Shown piece by piece: positions 41,546 to 52,011 of a stretch of 55,163 bases of DNA. Position 1 is the stretch's first letter. Each line of letters begins with the position of its first letter. The position numbers were made by a program, and so were the translations under genes. The DNA is from Ruminococcus sp. (GTDB taxonomy: Bacteria > Bacillota > Clostridia > Oscillospirales > Ruminococcaceae): assembly GCA_017461395.1 (NCBI GenBank), contig JAFTYF010000045.1, forward strand, positions 1 through 55,163, read 5' to 3'. The notes beneath the pieces are model-generated. The model searched no databases. It was given only the letters and a program-made list of their open reading frames with translations, and was not told where the DNA came from.

Positions 41546-44437
41546 ATGAATATCAAAAAAATTATCGGAAGATTTACTGCTGTATTCACAGCCTCCGCAC
41601 TTGCCGCTTCGGCTATATATATCGCTCCGGAAGATGTCGTTCCTGAGACTCTTGATGTATTTGCGGCTTCTGACTGCGTTGTAGATACAACTACAGAATA
41701 TCAGCTTATCAGAGGCTTCGGCGGAATCAATCATCCTGAATGGACAGGCAAGGATATGACCGACTCACAGAGACAGACAGCCTTCGGAAACGGTACTAAT
41801 GAACTCGGTCTCACTGTTCTCCGTGTATTCGTAAATCCTGATAAAAATCAGTGGAGCAAGGCTGTTCCTACTGCTAAATTCGCACAGGAAAACGGCGCTT
41901 ATGTATTCGCTTCACCGTGGGAACCGCCTTCAAATCTTGCACAGCCCGGTGACGGATCTTTTCAGGGCGGAAAGGTTCATCTTCCAAAATCAAATTACGG
42001 AGCATACGCTCAGCATCTTAACGATTTCGGCACTTATATGAAAAATCAGGGAGTTGATCTGTTCTCTATCTCAGTTCAGAACGAACCTGACTATGCTCAC
42101 GACTGGACCGGCTGGACTTCCGATGAAACAACAGATTTCCTTGCAAATTACGGCGATAAGATCACCAGCACAAGACTTATGTCGCCTGAATCCTTCCAGT
42201 ACACCAACAAGGATTACTACAGCAAGATACTCAACAACTCAAAGGCAATGGCAAACTGCGATCTTTTCGGTACTCATATGTATGGTACACAGAGAAGCCA
42301 GATGGACTTCCCAGCTCTTGAAAACTGCGGCAAGGAAATCTGGATGACTGAGGTTTACGTTCCGAACAGTGAAGCTGATTCCGCAAACCGCTGGCCTGAA
42401 GCTCTTCAGGTTTCTGAAAACATCCATAATGCAATGGTTGTTGGTAACATGAGCGCTTATGTATGGTGGTACATCAGAAGAAGCTACGGTCTTATGGACG
42501 AAAACGGTAAAATTACCAAAAGAGGATACAACATGGCTCAGTACTCCAAGTGGGTACGTCCCGGTGATAAGAGAATTGAAGTTACAGAACAGCCTGCAAG
42601 CAATGTTCTCGTTTCCGCTTACAAAAACGACAACAAGCAGGTAACTATCGTTGCTATCAACAAGGGTAATGATACTTATACCCAAAGCTTCAGCATCGGC
42701 AGCGGCGAAAAAATTATTGACGTTGACCGCTACAGAACTTCAGCAAGTGAAAATCTCGCTCTTACAGAAAATCTTGAAAATAACGGAAGCGGTTTCTTTG
42801 CTTCACTTCCCGCACAGAGCGTTTCAACATTCGTTGTATCCCTTGAGGGCAGCGGTGTTACACCCGGAACTCAGCCTGATGAAAACGGCTGGTTCTTCCA
42901 CGATGAGTTTGAACAGGATACCTGCTCATGGGAAAGCAGAGGTTCATCCTCTATCCTTACAAGCGGCAGAACTTTCATGCAGGGCAAGGAAGCTCTCCTC
43001 GTTCAGGAAAGAACTTCTTCATGGCACGGTGCCGGCAAACCCCTCAATCCTAAGGTGTTCGTTCCCGGTCAGGAATTCAGCTTCAGCGCTGATGTAATGT
43101 ACTTCGACGGCGATCCCACAACTCAGTTCTACATGAAGTTACAGTATACAGGCTCGGACGGTGAACCTCACTACAGCACGATCGCTGAGGCTAAGGCTGT
43201 CAAGGGCGAATGGGTACAGCTTGCAAATACAAACTACACTATCCCAGCTGATGCAACCGATATGCTTCTGTATATCGAAACAGCTGAAACAACAAATAAT
43301 TTCTACATCGACGAGGCTATAGGCGCACTTCCCGGCACTAAGATCGACGGTCCTGCACCTATTACATTTACTCTTGGTGATATCGACAATGACGGCGTAA
43401 TCGACGCATTTGACGTAGTTCTCGCAAGAAGAGGAGCTATCAGCGGCGTATTTGCAACACCCGCAAGAACTCTCGCTGCTGACGTAAATCAGGACGGAGA
43501 AAATAACATCGCAGATGCAGTTATGATTCAGAATTACGTTCTCAGAAGAATCAGCAATTTCTCAAAGTCCGATTCGTCATCTGATAATAGTTCTTCATCA
43601 GACGACGGTTCTTCATCTCAAATGCGCACAATATCTGAATACACTCCCCTTGTACAGGCTAAAATAATGACAAGTGAACCGGAAAGCGCAAAGCAGCAGC
43701 AGTCAGGTGTTCAGTACGGTACATTACAGTCAAAAAGCTACTATTCACAGTTCTGCGGCAGAGAAAAGAAGTACAATGTACTTCTTCCCGCAGGATACTC
43801 AACTGATAAAAAATATCCCGTTCTCTATGTTATGCACGGCTACTGGGAAAATCAGGACAGAATGATAATCAAGGGAAACGGCACTATGTATACAAAAGAG
43901 ATCATCGGAAATGCAATCGCTGAAGGTGCTGCAAAGGATATGATCGTTGTATTCCCATACATCTACTCCAGTCAGTCACAGGATGACTGCTCTGCAATGG
44001 ATGACGCAAACAATATCGCATACGACAATTTCGATACAGTTCTCGTTAACGAGCTTATGCCCCTTATTGAAAAGGAGTACAGTGTTGCAACAGGCAGAGC
44101 AAATACTGCTATCACTGGTTTCTCAATGGGCGGACGTGAATCTCTTAACATTGCAATGAAGCACCCTGATCTTTTCGGTTATGTAGGCGCTATCTGCCCT
44201 GCTCCCGGAGCATCAGGCGCATGGAAGTTCTCCTCTGAGGAAGCTGCTCCTTCACTTATCCTTATCACTGCTGGCGGCAATGATACAGTAGTTTACAGTA
44301 CTCCCGAAGGATATCACAACAACTTCACAAAGAACAACGTGCCACACATCTGGCACTATTACGAAAGCGGATACCACGGCGACAACAGTATTCATGCTCA
44401 TCTTTACAACTTCGTCCGTGCAGTATTCCAGGCTTAA
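41546..44437 (+). CDS. Cellulosomal xylanase-esterase (GH30_8 - CBM22 - dockerin - CE1)
   Basis: 963 aa, secreted. Signal peptide (about 1-35); GH30 domain with its beta-sandwich (about 45-440): acid/base Glu180 in SVQNEPDY, nucleophile Glu269 in WMTEVY, and the WWYIRRSYG segment, which in characterised glucuronoxylanases holds the Arg and Tyr that bind methyl-glucuronic acid. Then a CBM22-like module (about 452-605), a dockerin in the middle (about 610-672, GDIDNDGVIDAFDVVLARR and ADVNQDGENNIADAVMIQN), a Ser/Asp linker (about 673-700) and a CE1 esterase (about 705-963; nucleophile Ser860 in GFSMGGRE). It would cut glucuronoxylan and release acetyl or feruloyl groups from the same polymer. 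Confidence 0.92.
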   Translation: MNIKKIIGRFTAVFTASALAASAIYIAPEDVVPETLDVFAASDCVVDTTTEYQLIRGFGGINHPEWTGKDMTDSQRQTAFGNGTNELGLTVLRVFVNPDKNQWSKAVPTAKFAQENGAYVFASPWEPPSNLAQPGDGSFQGGKVHLPKSNYGAYAQHLNDFGTYMKNQGVDLFSISVQNEPDYAHDWTGWTSDETTDFLANYGDKITSTRLMSPESFQYTNKDYYSKILNNSKAMANCDLFGTHMYGTQRSQMDFPALENCGKEIWMTEVYVPNSEADSANRWPEALQVSENIHNAMVVGNMSAYVWWYIRRSYGLMDENGKITKRGYNMAQYSKWVRPGDKRIEVTEQPASNVLVSAYKNDNKQVTIVAINKGNDTYTQSFSIGSGEKIIDVDRYRTSASENLALTENLENNGSGFFASLPAQSVSTFVVSLEGSGVTPGTQPDENGWFFHDEFEQDTCSWESRGSSSILTSGRTFMQGKEALLVQERTSSWHGAGKPLNPKVFVPGQEFSFSADVMYFDGDPTTQFYMKLQYTGSDGEPHYSTIAEAKAVKGEWVQLANTNYTIPADATDMLLYIETAETTNNFYIDEAIGALPGTKIDGPAPITFTLGDIDNDGVIDAFDVVLARRGAISGVFATPARTLAADVNQDGENNIADAVMIQNYVLRRISNFSKSDSSSDNSSSSDDGSSSQMRTISEYTPLVQAKIMTSEPESAKQQQSGVQYGTLQSKSYYSQFCGREKKYNVLLPAGYSTDKKYPVLYVMHGYWENQDRMIIKGNGTMYTKEIIGNAIAEGAAKDMIVVFPYIYSSQSQDDCSAMDDANNIAYDNFDTVLVNELMPLIEKEYSVATGRANTAITGFSMGGRESLNIAMKHPDLFGYVGAICPAPGASGAWKFSSEEAAPSLILITAGGNDTVVYSTPEGYHNNFTKNNVPHIWHYYESGYHGDNSIHAHLYNFVRAVFQA

Positions 44438-44581: not shown

Positions 44582-47500
44582 TTACTCAGGAAGATTGCCA
44601 AGCTTCAGAATATATTTCTGAACTGCGAGGGCATCTTTATTTGTAAGACCGTCGCCATTGCCGGAAACATCAGCGTTTGCTACACCCTGAGCTGTCATAG
44701 CGCTTGCCTCAGATCCGCCTACAGCATATACGTCAGGATTTCCGATAGACTGCATGATGAGAATTGCATCGTTGAGAAGAACGCTGCCGTCGCAGTTAGC
44801 GTCACCGTAAAGTGTAACTTCCGGACCAGACTGCGGTAAAAATACAGAAGCGATCTCAGAATTGTTCTTGATAGCATCAAAGTAGATCTTACCCCACTCT
44901 GTAAGCTGTGAACCGTCCCAGCTGCTTACGAGGTCAAGATACTCAACGCCGCCGCTGTTGCCCATCCATGACCATGCAATGTAACCCATGTTATTCTGCT
45001 TGCAGTAGCTCATAACTGTTGCTTCATCAACATCGCCGTCAGTGTGCTTAAGACCAAATTCACCAACAAGTACAGGTGCACCGCACTCAAGAGCGCCGTC
45101 AATGTTGTTCTTTACCATTTCAGCTGTACCGCCTGCGTACTCATACATATGGATTGAGAATACTGTATTCTTTTCAGGATCAGATGCAAATACAGAAGCA
45201 CCTTCGTCCTTGATTGATGTAGGATACTGTCCCCAGCCTGCGCTGTCGATCATGATCATGTTCTTGATACCTGCATCACGAACAACCTTGATAGCTGCCT
45301 TACAGCCGTCAGCCCAGCCAGCGCTGTTCCAGTCGCCGTACCATTCGTTAGCAATGTTAAGGATAACATACTTGCGGTTTGCATTGAGGAGATCTGCCAT
45401 TGTTGCCCAGTACTCAGCAGCAGCAACGATATCTGCATTTGAGTTGCTTCCTGTAGCGTCATGTGCTTCGAGGATACAGATCTGCTTGTTTTCGATACAC
45501 CAGTTAATGATATTTTCGATCTCAGTAACAGAAGTCTTATCCCACTTAGCTCCGTCTGAGCATACGATACGAACACAGTTTGTACCAAGATCAGCAGCTG
45601 CCTTGATAGACTGCTCTGTCTTATCCTTGTACCAAGCGTGTGCAATATTTACACCGCGCATTTCAAATGCATTGCCGTTTGCGTCACGGATCGTCTGTCC
45701 GTCAACATAGAAGCCCTTGCCGTCATTCTGTGAAGGAATTGAAGGGCCGGGTGTAGGTTCGTCTGTCTTCATAGTATAAACTCCAGTAATATTGATTCCG
45801 GACTTATCATCTGTAGCTGTACCATTCTTTTCAGCATACCAGATCTGTCCTTCGTATGTTTTTGATTTGCCGAGTTCTGCCTTTACTGCCTCGATAATAG
45901 CCTTATCCTCGACAACCTCTGTTCCGAGTGAGCAGTTAAGGAAATCATCAAGTAAATTTACCTTTATGGCACCGCTCTTTGTTGTTTCCCACTGAATATT
46001 TACCCAGTAGTATTCGCCGTTGAGAGGGATAGAAATTCCCAGACCGCCGTTTGCGTATGTTATGCCGGAAGGAACTTCAACTGTAATATAGAATTCATCA
46101 ACAGCTTCAGGAAGTGTAACCTTGAAGTTGCCTGTTGTGCTGTCCTGTAAAACCTTTCCGTAATTCTTGTCGGGATCTGCTACTGTTGTTGTAGTTGTTG
46201 TAATAGGCTTTGATTTTGTAGTTGTTGTAGGAATAGGTGTAGGTGTAGGTGTTGATCTTGAATAAAGATCTGTCGGAAGTTCGTCAAGAGTGATGCAGTA
46301 ATCGCTCTGATACATCTTGATTGTGTCTTCCTTTGTATTGAATACAGGATCAGAAAGGAAGTTTATATCTGCGCTTCCGCCGTCGTACCATGTACAGAAG
46401 TAGAGCCAGCCTGCCTTTTCAGCAATGAGATTGTCAACTGTTGAGAAGCAGTCATTTTCAGCCATTGCTACCATTTTCTTGCTGTCATACTTTTCCATGA
46501 TTCCGTAGAATGTTGAGCTGATAGCACTGTCATTGTGCTTGAGAACAGGGCTTCCTGTTGACCAGTCTGTGCAGTTGTACTTATCGTAACCGATAATATC
46601 TACATAAGCGTCGCCGGGATACCAGTTTTCAGATGTAGAGAAGTTGTAGCTGTTCCACTCCCAGATAAGGTTGTGACAGCCGAAATCATTTGTGAGTGTC
46701 TCATAAGTGTAGATCCAGAGCTTCTTGTAAGCTTCAGAGCCTTCTCTGCCCCACCAGAACCATGAGGCTGTCTCACCGCCGCCGCCTTCTGCTTCGTGGA
46801 GAGGTCTCCAGAGAATCGGGATTCCCTGTTCTTCAAGTTCATTGAATTCCTTTGCAAGAACTTCAAGTCCCTGTAAGTAGTACTCATTTTCCTTTGTACC
46901 GGGTGTAGCAGCTGCAGAAGGTGAGAAATCTGTACCATCAGCTGTGTAAGTTGTCAGTGCCCAGTCGATTTTCTGACCGATCTTGTAGCTTTCAAAATCC
47001 TTAGGAACGTTGTAGTGGAATGAAGCAGTAGCAATACCGTTCTTATTCTTTACCCAGTCAATGATACGGTCAGTTGAGCCGTCGTCGCTGCCGAATGCAG
47101 GACAGCAGAAGTTACCGTAGTCGAAACCTCTGATAGCCGGAAGCTCGCCTGTGAGATTTTCAAGGTATTCAAACTCATACTCAAGACCGTGAGGACCGCC
47201 GGAATAAATTTCCTGCTGACCGGAGATGATATGATTTCCATAAACCTCAGAAAGATAGTTCATGAGACTTCTTGTTTCAGCTGTAGCATTTACGTCACAA
47301 ACAGTTACCTGTGAAGCTGTGATAGGCGGAAGTGTAGCTGCTTCAATTGTGAAGTAGTCGAAATTTGTCCAGCCCCAGCTCTTTTCGATAGTAAGGTTGT
47401 TTTTGCCCTTATTGAGCTTTACAGTCATTGAAATTGCTTCAAATCCTGTGTCATTTACTGGAATGGACAGTGCTCCCTGACTTACGTTGTTGATAGTAAG

Positions 47501-47803
47501 ATTCTGCTGTTTTGCACCGCCGAGACCACCAGCGTAGATAGTCAGAGTATACATACCTGCTTCTTCAGCATTAAAGTCAATGCTGATAGTTCCGCTGTCG
47601 GTCATTTTGAGACAAGAACCGCCGCTTGCACCGGAATTCTTTTCAACAGTTACGTCACCGGTAATAGTTGCGTCCTCGAACTCAATACGAGTCTCACCAG
47701 CAGCATTCACAAATACGGACGGTGTTGTTACAATAGCTGCATTTAAAGCCATTGACGCCGCAAGAAGTGCTGCTCCGCTCTTTCTGAATAATTTTTTGTG
47801 CAT
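44582..47803 (-). CDS. Cellulosomal double mannanase (CBM35-like - GH26 - beta-module - GH5_8 - dockerin)
   Basis: 1073 aa from ATG 47803, chosen because GGAGGG lies 7 bases upstream; a 45-codon extension runs into the promoter. Signal peptide (about 1-33), CBM35-like module (about 37-160), GH26 domain (about 170-540; acid/base Glu337 in RPLHEAEG, nucleophile Glu449 in AMAENDC), a Thr/Pro linker, a beta-rich module of about 140 residues (about 575-710) that I cannot name but that looks carbohydrate-binding, GH5 subfamily-8-like mannanase (about 718-985; EMRGVNIAHAWY, acid/base Glu820 in IANEWYG, nucleophile Glu915 in VGEFGL) and a dockerin (about 1000-1073). Two mannanase folds in one chain suggest cooperative attack on (galacto)glucomannan. 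Confidence 0.92.
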   Translation of the reverse strand: MHKKLFRKSGAALLAASMALNAAIVTTPSVFVNAAGETRIEFEDATITGDVTVEKNSGASGGSCLKMTDSGTISIDFNAEEAGMYTLTIYAGGLGGAKQQNLTINNVSQGALSIPVNDTGFEAISMTVKLNKGKNNLTIEKSWGWTNFDYFTIEAATLPPITASQVTVCDVNATAETRSLMNYLSEVYGNHIISGQQEIYSGGPHGLEYEFEYLENLTGELPAIRGFDYGNFCCPAFGSDDGSTDRIIDWVKNKNGIATASFHYNVPKDFESYKIGQKIDWALTTYTADGTDFSPSAAATPGTKENEYYLQGLEVLAKEFNELEEQGIPILWRPLHEAEGGGGETASWFWWGREGSEAYKKLWIYTYETLTNDFGCHNLIWEWNSYNFSTSENWYPGDAYVDIIGYDKYNCTDWSTGSPVLKHNDSAISSTFYGIMEKYDSKKMVAMAENDCFSTVDNLIAEKAGWLYFCTWYDGGSADINFLSDPVFNTKEDTIKMYQSDYCITLDELPTDLYSRSTPTPTPIPTTTTKSKPITTTTTTVADPDKNYGKVLQDSTTGNFKVTLPEAVDEFYITVEVPSGITYANGGLGISIPLNGEYYWVNIQWETTKSGAIKVNLLDDFLNCSLGTEVVEDKAIIEAVKAELGKSKTYEGQIWYAEKNGTATDDKSGINITGVYTMKTDEPTPGPSIPSQNDGKGFYVDGQTIRDANGNAFEMRGVNIAHAWYKDKTEQSIKAAADLGTNCVRIVCSDGAKWDKTSVTEIENIINWCIENKQICILEAHDATGSNSNADIVAAAEYWATMADLLNANRKYVILNIANEWYGDWNSAGWADGCKAAIKVVRDAGIKNMIMIDSAGWGQYPTSIKDEGASVFASDPEKNTVFSIHMYEYAGGTAEMVKNNIDGALECGAPVLVGEFGLKHTDGDVDEATVMSYCKQNNMGYIAWSWMGNSGGVEYLDLVSSWDGSQLTEWGKIYFDAIKNNSEIASVFLPQSGPEVTLYGDANCDGSVLLNDAILIMQSIGNPDVYAVGGSEASAMTAQGVANADVSGNGDGLTNKDALAVQKYILKLGNLPE

Positions 47804-47920
47804 TGTAATTCCCTCCAAAACAATTTTACAATCATGAAGATGCCGTTTTCCAATACCAAGCAAACCTCTCTGACCAAGAAAGCTTCTTGACTTATGCTGC
47901 GGCACCGTCATGCCATAATA

Positions 47921-47949
47921 ATTATAGTAAACGCACAAATCAAAGTCAA
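47921..47949 (-). promoter_or_regulatory. Sigma-A promoter of the double-mannanase gene
   Basis: Minus strand TTGACT (47944-47949), 17 bases, TATAAT (47921-47926). The leader is about 110 nt, containing a CAAGAA-GCT-TTCTTG hairpin (about 47876-47890) of unknown role. Confidence 0.8.
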
Positions 47950-47972
47950 GTTTTTTTAAAAATCTTTCAAAA

Positions 47973-47995
47973 CATTTGGCACTTTACGCCAAATG
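47973..47995. promoter_or_regulatory. Operator-like inverted repeat upstream of the mannanase promoter
   Basis: CATTTGGC (47973-47980) and GCCAAATG (47988-47995) form a perfect 8-bp inverted repeat 24 bases upstream of the -35. A third half-site CATTTGG occurs at 48025-48031. An activator site is plausible. Confidence 0.5.
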
Positions 47996-48061
47996 CGTAT
48001 AGCAATTTTTGGTCAAAATCGCAACATTTGGTGACTTAATTAATTGTGTAAAATAAAACAA

Positions 48062-48087
48062 AATCCGGATAACAGTTTATCCGGATT
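48062..48087 (-). terminator. Terminator of the murL-murD operon
   Basis: AATCCGGATAA / TTATCCGGATT hairpin followed on the minus strand by TTGTTTTATTTT. Confidence 0.85.
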
Positions 48088-48098
48088 TTGTTCATTTT

Positions 48099-49445
48099 TT
48101 ATATTATTTTCTTCACAAGGCTTTTGAACACATCGCCTCGTTCTTCAAAATTCTTGAAAATCCCATAGCTCGCAGCAGCTGGAGATAATACACAGCTTTT
48201 TCCCTCAGGAGTTATCTGCGCCGCTAAAGTTACTGCGTCCTCAAGGTGCTCAGCATAATGCACACGCTCCGGAACCTTGACATCAGCCGCCTGAAGCATA
48301 TCAAAAACACGTTTTCCAGAAGCCTCCATGCAGATAACGTTTACATCAGCAGTACTGAGAAATTCCACAAGCGAGGTATAATCAATTCCCCTGTCCATGC
48401 CGCCGATAAGTATCGTTCCGGCATCAGGAACACTTTTTACCGCTTCGATAGCCGTTGCGCAGGCAGTCGAAATAGAATCATCATACCAGCGGATCCCTTT
48501 GAATATTCCCACAAATTCAAGACGGTGGGCAAGAGGATCAAAAGTACAGAGTGCGCTTTCAAATTCCTCCGGACTTACAAACGGCGAGGTCATGAAATAC
48601 GCTGCCGCAATATTGAAATGATTGTGGATTCCGAGCAGTTTTATCTTGTCAACGGGAATTTTATAGCTGTCGCCGCTGAATTTAAGCTCCGCAGTACCGC
48701 CGCTGACATAGATTTCAGCCTCCGGATTTTTATCAGAAATACTGAAAACAAGACCGTCATCATCCTTAGGAGCAATATCGCTGTTTATCAGCAAACAATC
48801 CTCCTCATCCTGATAAAGATAAATATTTTTCTTTGCGTTGTAGTAGCGTTCCATCGTGCCGTAATGGTCAAGGTGCTCCTCGTAGAGGTTGAGGAATACC
48901 GCCGCTGACGGAGATACCGTCATATATTCAAGCTGGTGACATGAAAGCTCACAGACCACGATAGTTTCATCGGTCATTTCCTCAGCGATATTGAAAACGG
49001 GAATACCTATATTTCCGGCAATTATGCATTTTTTTCCAGATTCTTTAAGGATGTGATAAATCAGCGATGTAACTGTGCTTTTTCCCTTTGTTCCCGTAAT
49101 TCCGATTATCTGTTCACGGTAAACCTCGAAAAACACCTGTGTTTCGGAAGTTATGGTGCAATTCAGCTCATCGGGCTGTTTTTCGAGTACAATTCCCGGA
49201 CTTTTGAAAACAAGATCAAATTCATCGAGAAATTTCTGATAATCAGCACCGCAGATTATTCTCACGTCACCGGATATTCCATTTGCAGCAGTGTCGATTT
49301 CATTGAGATCAGCTATCGCAACAGAAGCCGGCTTACAATATTTATTAAGAATTTCAAATGTTGCCTTGCCTTCTCTGCCGAATCCGAGAATGCAGACAGA
49401 TTTATTTTCAGTAAGATTTTTTATATGCTTTACAAATCTTTTCAA
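48099..49445 (-). CDS. murD: UDP-N-acetylmuramoyl-L-alanine--glutamate ligase (MurD family; possibly MurD2, L-Glu specific)
   Basis: 448 aa Mur ligase adding glutamate to UDP-MurNAc-L-Ala in the cytoplasm. N-terminal Rossmann domain (GFGREGKATFE), the ATP loop GTKGKST (about 117-123), NLYEEHLDHYG and YDDSISTACA, and a C-terminal domain with LIGGMDRGIDY. Its ATG overlaps the stop of a murL-like epimerase by 4 bases. In organisms with MurL, the partner ligase (MurD2) adds L-Glu and MurL then epimerises it, replacing MurI/MurD. So this protein may be MurD2; sequence alone does not settle which enantiomer it uses. Confidence 0.9.
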   Translation of the reverse strand: MKRFVKHIKNLTENKSVCILGFGREGKATFEILNKYCKPASVAIADLNEIDTAANGISGDVRIICGADYQKFLDEFDLVFKSPGIVLEKQPDELNCTITSETQVFFEVYREQIIGITGTKGKSTVTSLIYHILKESGKKCIIAGNIGIPVFNIAEEMTDETIVVCELSCHQLEYMTVSPSAAVFLNLYEEHLDHYGTMERYYNAKKNIYLYQDEEDCLLINSDIAPKDDDGLVFSISDKNPEAEIYVSGGTAELKFSGDSYKIPVDKIKLLGIHNHFNIAAAYFMTSPFVSPEEFESALCTFDPLAHRLEFVGIFKGIRWYDDSISTACATAIEAVKSVPDAGTILIGGMDRGIDYTSLVEFLSTADVNVICMEASGKRVFDMLQAADVKVPERVHYAEHLEDAVTLAAQITPEGKSCVLSPAAASYGIFKNFEERGDVFKSLVKKII

Positions 49446-50824
49446 AGGAGACGCTCCATTTCTTTCTTTAAAATTGTTTTGAATTCATCCGTCAGAAGAT
49501 TCTGCTCATTAAAGTAACAGCAATATTCTTTTCTGCGTTCTTCAAGAGTTTCCGGATGATAGAGTCCACGCTTCACATATTCCTCAAATAGAAGCGGAAG
49601 TTTCTCGCCCTGAGCTTCAAGCTTCTGAATGGCAAGCGATACAGAAAGATTCACCTCGCTGACGCTTCCCACACACTCGAATGGCTTGTGTTCGGATTCG
49701 CCTATAAGTTCTATGAAATATTCAAGCATTGACGGATCATTAAGCATATCCTTGCCAAACATTTCCTTAAGCTCGTCAAGGCTCAGGAACGGCGAAAGTA
49801 TCAGGCTGACAAAGAGACATTTGGGGCACTCTAGGCACCATATATCTGGCGAAACCTTGCTTCCGAGGTTACAGCTTCTGAACACAGGCAGATATTTTCT
49901 GTGTGAAACAAACATACTTGCGATCTGAAATTCCGTCAAAGGACGCAAAAAGCTGAAATAGCTGATTCCGGTGCCAAGATACTTCTTTTCGTACTCATGA
50001 AAATCGCTCTCAAATTCGAAGCTCTTTGAATACTGATGATTCACTATACTGCCTGCGACAGTACTTTCGTTGGCGCTTGATTCATTTGACAGGACAATAT
50101 ATTTCACTCCGTAGAGGTACGCAGTAATTTCTGCTGAGAATGCTACAACAGATGAGAATGGCGTATGGCCGTTAAGATATCCCTTGTTGTTGAGATCTAC
50201 AAGACTGCGGTCGAATTTACGACGTGCTGTAATAAGAGTATTCTCCGGAAGTCCGGCTGCTTCTACAGTTCCGCTGATAGAACGTCTCTTGTTAATAGAA
50301 TAACACCGGCATTTCATTCCGGAATTTTTCAGTGTTTCCAGTGTTAGAGCAGAATCCTTTCCGCCGCCTATCGGTATAAGACAGCCGTTCAGTTCACGGT
50401 CTGAACGTAAATCCGCACTTATTTCTTTACCTGTGCAGTTAATATTCACAAACTCCTGCTGAGTACTTTCAATTCCATTTATAAACTGGAATTCTCCCAA
50501 TCCGAGGAACCAAAGTTTTTTCCACCATTCCTTCTGTTCTTCGGTAAGGAATCCACATTCCACCCTTAATTCCGGTGAACAGACAGACTTCCAGTAGCTT
50601 ATAGCCTCTGCCATTCCAAGATTGAATACAAGCTTTTCAAATACAGCATCACCAGAAACAGTCAGTCCGTCAGGCTTAGGAAAACTCCAGCCAGGTCTGA
50701 ACTGTGCAAGACCGGGAATATCGTAGAAGAAGTCAACATCAATTGCTTCATCAGTTTCTTTTATATCGTATGATCTGAAAATAAAAACAGGATTTTCATT
50801 TCTGAACGCCGCAAATTTATTCAT
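49442..50824 (-). CDS. murL: MurL-like UDP-MurNAc-L-Ala-L-Glu epimerase
   Basis: 460 aa from ATG 50824 (GGAGG 11 bases upstream; the longer frame overlaps the regulator gene and is not credible). The central PP-loop-like motif IPIGGGKDSALTLE (about 212-225) and the following VLSNESSANES segment belong to the nucleotide alpha-hydrolase-like family to which MurL of Xanthomonas belongs. Cys-rich WCLECPKC lies near 370. MurL converts terminal L-Glu to D-Glu in UDP-MurNAc-L-Ala-L-Glu using ATP and Mg. The length and 4-base overlap with a MurD-type ligase match the known murD2-murL pairing. It might instead be a related ATP-using enzyme of unknown substrate. Confidence 0.75.
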   Translation of the reverse strand: MNKFAAFRNENPVFIFRSYDIKETDEAIDVDFFYDIPGLAQFRPGWSFPKPDGLTVSGDAVFEKLVFNLGMAEAISYWKSVCSPELRVECGFLTEEQKEWWKKLWFLGLGEFQFINGIESTQQEFVNINCTGKEISADLRSDRELNGCLIPIGGGKDSALTLETLKNSGMKCRCYSINKRRSISGTVEAAGLPENTLITARRKFDRSLVDLNNKGYLNGHTPFSSVVAFSAEITAYLYGVKYIVLSNESSANESTVAGSIVNHQYSKSFEFESDFHEYEKKYLGTGISYFSFLRPLTEFQIASMFVSHRKYLPVFRSCNLGSKVSPDIWCLECPKCLFVSLILSPFLSLDELKEMFGKDMLNDPSMLEYFIELIGESEHKPFECVGSVSEVNLSVSLAIQKLEAQGEKLPLLFEEYVKRGLYHPETLEERRKEYCCYFNEQNLLTDEFKTILKKEMERLL

Positions 50825-50846
50825 ATTATGCTTATCCTCCGGATAT

Positions 50847-51233
50847 TTATTTTGTGCCTTGTTGTTCGGCAAGCTTTTTGCAGTGTTTTCTAAGACACTC
50901 AAAGGTTTCGTCTGAAATATCATGCTCGATCTTGCAGGCATCCTCTGCCGCCGTATCCCTTCCAACGCCCAGAAGCATAAAAAATTCCGAGATAACAGTA
51001 TGGCGGTCATAGACGTGCTCAGCCACTGCCCTGCCCTTTTCCGTAAGGGTGATATGGTTGTTCTCGTTAACCGAAACAAGACCGTCATCCTTCATTTTTT
51101 TCAATACGATAGATACAGTAGGGCGTGAATATCCCAGATATGAGCATATATCAATAGCATGAACATCGGGCTGCTGCTTTGACAGGATCAGTATAGTTTC
51201 AAGATAATTTTCAACTGCTTCTGTAATAGCCAT
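50847..51233 (-). CDS. DtxR/MntR-family metal-dependent regulator
   Basis: 128 aa: winged helix (about 5-65; YSRPTVSIVLKKMKDDGLV is the reading helix) followed by the metal-binding/dimerisation domain. Metal ligands by comparison: Glu in VENYLE, His in DRHTVISEF and the CKIEH motif (Cys, Glu, His), which is more like the iron-type DtxR site than MntR's E..EH. No SH3-like third domain. AAGGAG precedes the ATG. It is the first gene of the operon with murL and murD (gap 22), an unexpected neighbour for cell-wall synthesis. Confidence 0.88.
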   Translation of the reverse strand: MAITEAVENYLETILILSKQQPDVHAIDICSYLGYSRPTVSIVLKKMKDDGLVSVNENNHITLTEKGRAVAEHVYDRHTVISEFFMLLGVGRDTAAEDACKIEHDISDETFECLRKHCKKLAEQQGTK

Positions 51234-51394
51234 TTAAATTCTCCTTCTTGGAATAGTTGCCTTTATATTATATCATATCCTGATAAAAATTACAACACTT
51301 TTTGACGTTCATCAATCAAATTAATGAAACTATTGATTATTTTGATGAAATGTGGTATAATGATTAAGGAAAATATCTTTCGGAGGGAGCATTT

Positions 51395-51988
51395 ATGACA
51401 GCAAAAGAAGAATTTATTTCAATATTCAATGAAAATATTAAGCGTGAGGGAGCAGATAAGCTTCTGGAATACCTCCAGAAAAGCGACTTCTTTACCGCAC
51501 CAAGCAGTACACGCTATCATGGCTCCTACGAGGGCGGACTCGTTGAGCACAGTGTAAATGTTTATCACTGCCTGAAGGACTACCTCTCACGTCCGAGGGT
51601 AAAAGAAAAATACGGCATGGAGTATTCTGAGGAAACTATCGCTATCGTTGCTCTGCTCCATGATCTCTGTAAAATCAACTTCTACACTGTGGAATACAGA
51701 AACCGTAAAAATGATGCCGGCGTATGGGAAAAGTATCCATGCTACACAATAAACGATACTCTCCCCTACGGTCACGGCGAAAAATCTGTCTACATAATCT
51801 CCGGCTTCTTTTACGGAGATAACCGGCTTTCCCGTGAAGAAGCGTTCGCTATCCGCTATCACATGGGATTTTCCGGCATTGAAGACAAAAACACTATCGG
51901 CAAGGCACTTGAAATGTATCCGCTTGCATTTGCTCTCAGCGTTGCTGATATGGAGGCCTCATATTTCCTTGAAGGCAGCACCAAATAA
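51395..51988 (+). CDS. HD-domain phosphohydrolase
   Basis: 197 aa. Metal-binding HD pattern is visible: His in GGLVEHSVNVY (about 49-59), HD in LLHDLCKINFY (about 88-98), His in YGHGEKSVY (about 127) and the final Asp in SVADMEASY (about 186-194). Such proteins hydrolyse nucleotides or phosphodiesters; related forms are annotated as 3'-5' exoribonuclease YhaM-like/dGTPase-like, but it lacks an OB domain. GGAGGG precedes the ATG. It is 23 bases before the GH13 gene and probably co-transcribed. Confidence 0.82.
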   Translation: MTAKEEFISIFNENIKREGADKLLEYLQKSDFFTAPSSTRYHGSYEGGLVEHSVNVYHCLKDYLSRPRVKEKYGMEYSEETIAIVALLHDLCKINFYTVEYRNRKNDAGVWEKYPCYTINDTLPYGHGEKSVYIISGFFYGDNRLSREEAFAIRYHMGFSGIEDKNTIGKALEMYPLAFALSVADMEASYFLEGSTK

Positions 51989-52011
51989 TCATCATAAGGA
52001 GTTATCACAAC

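Follow-up and report, generated by a model that had tools for sequence, protein, structure and literature searches.

A murL-murD operon headed by a DtxR/MntR-type regulator as the probable source of peptidoglycan D-glutamate in Ruminococcus

How D-glutamate (D-Glu) reaches the peptidoglycan of a bacterium in which no MurI is found is the question raised by a three-gene locus of Ruminococcus sp. (GCA_017461395.1, contig JAFTYF010000045.1, positions 1-55,163; this whole stretch of 55,163 nucleotides is referred to as the window). The locus spans positions 48099-51233 and consists of three co-directional minus-strand genes, which encode a regulator, a MurL-like protein and a MurD-type ligase. A first-pass annotation of this DNA, whose coordinates were correct, had likened the locus to the MurD2-MurL route, in which L-Glu is added and then epimerised, and had suggested that the regulator ties this step to iron or manganese. 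The first of these claims is supported by the absence of MurI, a single MurD, a match to the MurL profile and a pair of specificity residues. It is very probable that the operon supplies peptidoglycan D-Glu by the MurD2-MurL route, with the regulator at its head.

By this route, the MurD2-type ligase would put L-Glu into the cell-wall precursor, and MurL would then convert L-Glu to D-Glu on the nucleotide precursor. MurL would use ATP, with the alpha-carboxylate probably adenylated through a PP-loop type nucleotide site. Such a cell would need neither free D-Glu nor MurI or a canonical MurD. In Xanthomonas oryzae the MurD2 and MurL genes are XOO_1320 and XOO_1319, respectively (Feng et al., 2017, as given in the review PMC8788868). 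Work on these Xanthomonas genes used the D-Glu auxotroph E. coli WM335 (PMC8788868). In X. sacchari murL is directly followed by murD2 with an overlap, and the same arrangement was confirmed in the window, where the murL stop and the murD start share the 4 nt TTGA, as the first-pass annotation had described. The two systems also have in common the two specificity residues, the conserved MurL motifs and a genome without MurI. The window differs from the Xanthomonas system in its Firmicute host, in a MurL only 27% identical to that of X. sacchari and in the leading DtxR/MntR-type gene found in this genus.

The assembly to which the window belongs comprises 2.08 Mb in 80 contigs and is 93% complete. 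A profile search of this genome gave no match to MurI, and no D-amino-acid transaminase was found over the cut-off of 277 bits, the only match being partial (41 bits). A single MurD, that of the window, scored over the cut-off of the MurD model TIGR01087 (212 bits); the next best Mur ligase reached 113 bits. Neither murI nor a second murD, the two genes that the first-pass annotation had proposed to look for, was therefore found. A similar picture emerged from the family sample of 119 genomes, where MurL was found in 11 and MurI over its cut-off in 98, never together (Fisher p 3e-10, uncorrected for kinship). Four of the 11 MurL genomes (G030, G066, G082, G108) contain weak partial MurI matches of 20-34 bits, a kind also seen as a second match in genomes with MurI. 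The transaminase was searched for in these 11 genomes and in six MurL-negative genomes without a MurI match; none of the 11 has one over the cut-off (partial matches of 20-46 bits). The 108 MurL-negative genomes include the 98 with MurI, two with matches just below the cut-off (G068, G095), two with fragments (G037, G046) and six in which the MurI search gave no match (G003, G016, G049, G070, G072, G098). G003 and G098 contain a transaminase match that is nearly full-length but, at about 230 bits, lies below the cut-off. G072 is 99% complete but fragmented, and contains a canonical MurD without any MurI, MurL or full D-amino-acid transaminase being found. Deletion of murD from the division/cell-wall cluster, sought via mraY, was dropped as a line of enquiry after seven MurL-negative genomes had been searched; mraY and murD were far apart on one contig in G013 and G117 and on different contigs in the other five.

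Within the genus the proportions are reversed. MurL was found in 109 of 125 genomes and MurI over the cut-off in seven. One genome has both and 108 have MurL alone, against six with MurI alone and ten with neither (Fisher p 1e-5). When the two genome samples are pooled, MurI over the cut-off is absent from 117 of the 118 distinct genomes with MurL. In 108 of the 109 genus loci murD lies directly after murL, and in the remaining one (G544) the contig ends; the gene order is not a product of chance. A canonical MurD was found in seven (G543, G554, G574, G595, G602, G615, G623) of the 16 congeners in which MurL gave no match, and six of these seven have MurI. In these six, the MurD carries Asn, Ala and Lys at the three positions described below and is 28-32% identical to that of the window. 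A minority of congeners thus has MurI and canonical MurD in place of MurL and MurD2, which is a swap of an essential pathway within one genus. In most genomes of this genus, to which Ruminococcus flavefaciens belongs, the MurD2-MurL route would take the place of MurI and canonical MurD, as it would in several genera elsewhere in the family.

The ligase itself carries the second line of evidence. Exchange of both Glu197 for Asp and Arg358 for Lys converts the MurD2 of X. oryzae from an L-Glu ligase to a D-Glu ligase (PMC8788868). When aligned, the window MurD has Glu190 and Arg352 at these two positions. Further alignment compared 17 MurL-linked MurD rows (the window, ten family genomes and six named loci) with 100 rows from MurL-negative family genomes, the other eight of the 108 having no murD match over the cut-off. 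At the position equivalent to E. coli Asp182, Glu is found in 17/17 MurL-linked rows, whereas the 100 MurL-negative rows have Asn (95) or Asp (5). At the Lys348 equivalent, Arg in 17/17 stands against Lys in 100/100, and a third column separates Ser (17/17) from Ala (93) and Gly (7). MurD2 of X. sacchari, whose record is labelled a plasmid, has Glu, Arg and Ser at the three columns. The first position is Asp in the MurD of E. coli, Aeromonas and Sinorhizobium, Ala in Bacillus velezensis and Thr in Paenibacillus. Among MurL-positive genus loci, Glu was found in 108/108 MurD read, Ser in 107/107 and Arg in 107/107. The claim of a MurD2-type ligase is supported by both stereospecificity residues, in the window MurD and in the other MurL-linked MurD. 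One more candidate marker, Lys319 in E. coli numbering, was considered, a change to Thr having been reported to make E. coli MurD accept L-Glu (PMC8788868); it was dropped, as the position is Ile in 17/17 MurL-positive and 99/100 MurL-negative rows.

The MurL-like protein was compared with NF041275, the NCBIfam MurL model, which is an equivalog built for Xanthomonadales with a curated cut-off of 700 bits. In this comparison, which had been proposed in the first-pass annotation, the protein matches the model over residues 60-405 (225 bits, E 1.1e-66), under the Xanthomonadales-specific cut-off. It has invariant motifs in common with X. sacchari MurL, and invariant cysteines in the alignment (WC..C.KC) which may bind a metal. 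A profile of 13 MurL members, including X. sacchari and a Pseudonocardia homologue, found the PP-loop enzyme TtuA over 45 residues with the motif GGGKDS (E 3.5e-4), and QueC was found by one of the 13 members (E 0.2). GGGKDS resembles the SGGxDS-type motif that PP-loop ATPases such as TtuA and QueC have in a Rossmann-like domain; outside the 45 residues no match was obtained. The window protein alone found no related structure among solved structures. The TtuA match and the motif fit the predicted adenylation by a PP-loop domain of MurL. Published MurL consumes ATP and releases AMP (PMC8788868), and this and a second review describe MurL as being without known conserved domains. Two other relatives of MurL were encountered. 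Weak similarity to DUF6395 was found in 12 of the 13 members (E 7.9e-5 at best, 0.024 for the window member), which in the window falls at 49727-49918, or MurL residues 303-366, and DUF6395 may be a MurL relative. A homologue on Pseudonocardia alni plasmid pPaSha1 (L135, 3854-5254) has no adjoining Mur ligase in an incomplete gene table and may have another role.

The regulator belongs to the DtxR/MntR family, with both Fe_dep_repress (PF01325, 39 bits) and Fe_dep_repr_C (PF02742, 56 bits) over their cut-offs, and its best match among solved structures is E. coli MntR (2h09, E 2.6e-16). These two domains and the short form are common to it and to the repressors MntR (2h09), IdeR and DtxR; unlike those known repressors, it is located in a peptidoglycan operon. 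In 106 of the 109 genus loci it was found upstream of murL, on the same strand and with short gaps. At the three others, all at contig ends, the sequence before the MurL match is 0, 2 and 95 nt long; among loci with at least 400 nt upstream the regulator is present in 105/105. The flanks do change. Among the 94 genus loci that extend 1000 nt or more upstream of the MurL match, at least 6 have the HD-domain gene that precedes the window regulator, and the glycosidase gene beyond the window murD was found in at least 5 of 109; both counts, the second above all, are lower bounds, as many genus loci extend only 1.5 kb beyond the MurL match or end at contig ends. Since these neighbours were found in few congeners, the operon has been kept while its surroundings changed. 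At 11 MurL loci from other genera, one of which reaches only 241 nt upstream, no regulator relative was found. This makes the regulator a genus-specific and tightly kept part of the operon.

In 104 of the 105 rows read for the regulator, residues N9, E12, H78, C100, E103 and H104 do not vary, and the remaining row (L251) comprises only 15 residues; the regulator of L148, whose start lies off the contig stretch, was left out of this reading. In this family the metal-ligand positions are Asp8, Glu11, His77, Glu99, Glu102 and His103 in MntR, and Met10, Cys102, Glu105 and His106 in DtxR. On this basis, Glu12, His78, Glu103 and His104 stand at ligand positions, Cys100 is as in DtxR, and Asn9 stands where MntR has Asp and DtxR Met; Asn is not known as a usual ligand there. 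Upstream, TTGnnn-17-TATAAT was found in 92 of 99 genus regions of at least 120 nt, with TG before the -10 in 91 of the 92. Compared base by base with 117 other promoter-like sites of the loci, this pattern is similar, although its TG is stronger and its -35 further from TTGACA, and the conserved columns look like an ordinary sigma-A promoter.

In this genus the regulator would most likely respond to a divalent metal and thereby control its own transcript. That a metal-sensing repressor fixed in the genus gates the D-Glu step, placing the only murD and D-Glu source under iron or manganese control, is quite possible and is proposed here tentatively; the reason might perhaps be that MurL or MurD2 depends on that metal. 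The metal link drawn in the first-pass annotation holds as far as the family assignment by Pfam and the place of the regulator before murL across the genus. It does not extend to an operator, which was not recognised, nor to the MurL loci of other genera. A serious, if on balance somewhat doubtful, alternative is that the DtxR-type gene is a mere neighbour, co-transcribed by historical accident and controlling other genes such as those of metal transport rather than murL-murD. The usual targets of DtxR/MntR proteins are metal uptake genes. No common palindrome was seen by eye among the 70 upstream regions read out of the 99, column counts gave the sigma-A-type promoter only, and other MurL-bearing genera are without the regulator gene. 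Against this alternative stands the constant presence of the gene on the same strand and at short distance despite changing flanks, and no metal transporter was recognised beside the regulator in the window and six other loci, where printed protein starts were read without a family search.

Several findings weigh against the MurD2-MurL reading of the enzymes. The NF041275 cut-off was reached neither by the window protein nor by any family or genus match (best 265 bits). One genus genome (G572, 74% complete) has both MurL and MurI over the cut-off, and weak partial matches to MurI were seen in two further MurL genomes, G528 (44 bits) and G537 (34 bits). In ten genus genomes neither gene was found. 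Two of these, G619 and G626, have an MurD2-type murD at a contig start (that of G626 readable only at Ser and Arg), and their murL may lie beyond the contig break; in seven others no murD at all scored over the cut-off, an absence that suggests gaps in the assemblies. G623 (85% complete) has a canonical MurD and no MurI was found. In the family no full D-Glu source was found in G016, G049, G070 and G072 (completeness 55-99%), the searches being aimed at MurI and the transaminase and not at a broad-specificity racemase. Arg at the second specificity position also occurs in the canonical MurD of Bacillus velezensis and Paenibacillus; therefore Arg alone is not diagnostic, and it is the first position and the Glu/Arg pair that discriminate. 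Lastly, two of the four near-substrate differences between X. oryzae MurD2 and E. coli MurD are not shared by the window MurD, which has Tyr427 and Ala425 in place of Phe435 and Pro433; these two did not set specificity in X. oryzae (PMC8788868). Leaving aside the Xanthomonadales cut-off, which was not reached, and the single genome that has both genes, the enzyme reading agrees with every relevant sequence-based test.

The remaining explanation, that the ligase is an ordinary D-Glu-adding MurD fed by an unrecognised racemase while the MurL-like protein modifies another substrate, e.g., a peptide natural product, could draw on the moderate similarity of the latter to the characterised family and on MurL-like genes of Pseudonocardia plasmids, one in a region without a listed adjoining Mur ligase (homologues therefore need not all be wall enzymes), but it is very unlikely given the near-exclusivity with MurI and the MurD2 residues in every MurL-linked MurD read against 0 of 107 canonical-type MurD (100 family, 7 genus) from MurL-negative genomes.

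The features of the locus are collected in Table 1. The regulator and murL are separated by 22 nt. The mechanical open reading frame of the MurL-like protein comprises 548 aa and extends back into the regulator gene; its start was placed at the listed ATG because alignments to named relatives cover residues 1-460 or 1-454 counted from it. A search of Rfam over 47000-52000 gave no match above gathering scores. By Pfam, the operon adjoins genes for a CBM35-GH26-GH5 protein (44582-47938) and a GH30 C-terminal/CBM/dockerin/esterase protein (41546-44437); such large carbohydrate-active proteins are as expected for a fibre-degrading Ruminococcus.

Table 1. Features of the murL-murD operon, in window coordinates.
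Feature	Position	Strand	Evidence
Promoter-like site, TTGTAA-17 nt-TATAAT, TG before -10	51267..51295	-	Consensus scan
DtxR/MntR-type regulator, 128 aa	50847..51233	-	Pfam PF01325 and PF02742 over cut-off
murL-like, 460 aa, ATG at 50824	49442..50824	-	NF041275, 225 bits, E 1.1e-66
murD2-type ligase, 448 aa, TTG start	48099..49445	-	TIGR01087, 316 bits
Terminator-like hairpin, 17 pairs, just past murD	48056..48093	- (also scored as terminator on +)	Scan

Beyond the genus, murL and murD were found adjacent in 16 of the 17 loci of a first set. In the other (G108) they lie on different contigs, and the MurD is still of the Glu/Arg type. This set overlaps the genus set by the window, G019 and four loci (L017, L018, L019 and L022, most likely identical to G515, G528, G534 and G594), which are R. 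flavefaciens ATCC 19208, Y1 and YAD2003 and an Oscillospiraceae metagenome-assembled genome. Judged by eye, the surroundings of murL-murD vary between genera. In a phylum sample of 398 genomes, few of them from the same order, MurL was found only in the window's own genome, and no MurL was found on viral contigs. A tree of 58 MurD, in which 34 of the 100 MurL-negative rows were included (every third), placed the 17 MurL-linked MurD in one group (100/99), joined by X. sacchari MurD2 (100/97) on a very long branch. An AU test did not reject placing X. sacchari MurD2 with three proteobacterial MurD (p 0.36). Given the long branch and this result, common descent with Xanthomonas MurD2 and transfer are no more than possible.

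Reviews place the MurD2-MurL route in Gammaproteobacteria, Alphaproteobacteria and actinobacteria (PMC8788868 and a second review), and one also mentions a fungus, cyanobacteria and an amoeba as having distant homologues. In a literature whose coverage left out most subscription journals, no report of the route in Firmicutes and nothing linking DtxR with murD was found. Other papers returned, as far as the retrieved passages go, use murL or Murl as a name for glutamate racemase or for an enzyme that converts glutamate (PMC11464490, PMC2650404, PMC3328466), contain the string only within Mur_ligase (PMC2922099), concern another epimerase (PMC11961199), or refer to racemase or to R. flavefaciens in another connection (PMC12926489, PMC10778721).

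The alternative D-Glu route, already described for some proteobacteria and actinobacteria, would thus be extended to Bacillota. No other route is apparent in most genomes of this genus of rumen and gut cellulose degraders, in which a conserved, likely metal-sensing gene precedes the pair. MurI inhibitors are predicted to miss these bacteria, and supposedly narrow-spectrum MurD2 or MurL inhibitors could hit them. The sharp swap between MurI with canonical MurD and MurL with MurD2 within one genus is a natural test bed for the replacement of an essential pathway. Metal control of murL-murD is a plausible hypothesis and a good one to test; through the fixed regulator, a connection of wall synthesis with metal status is open to direct testing.

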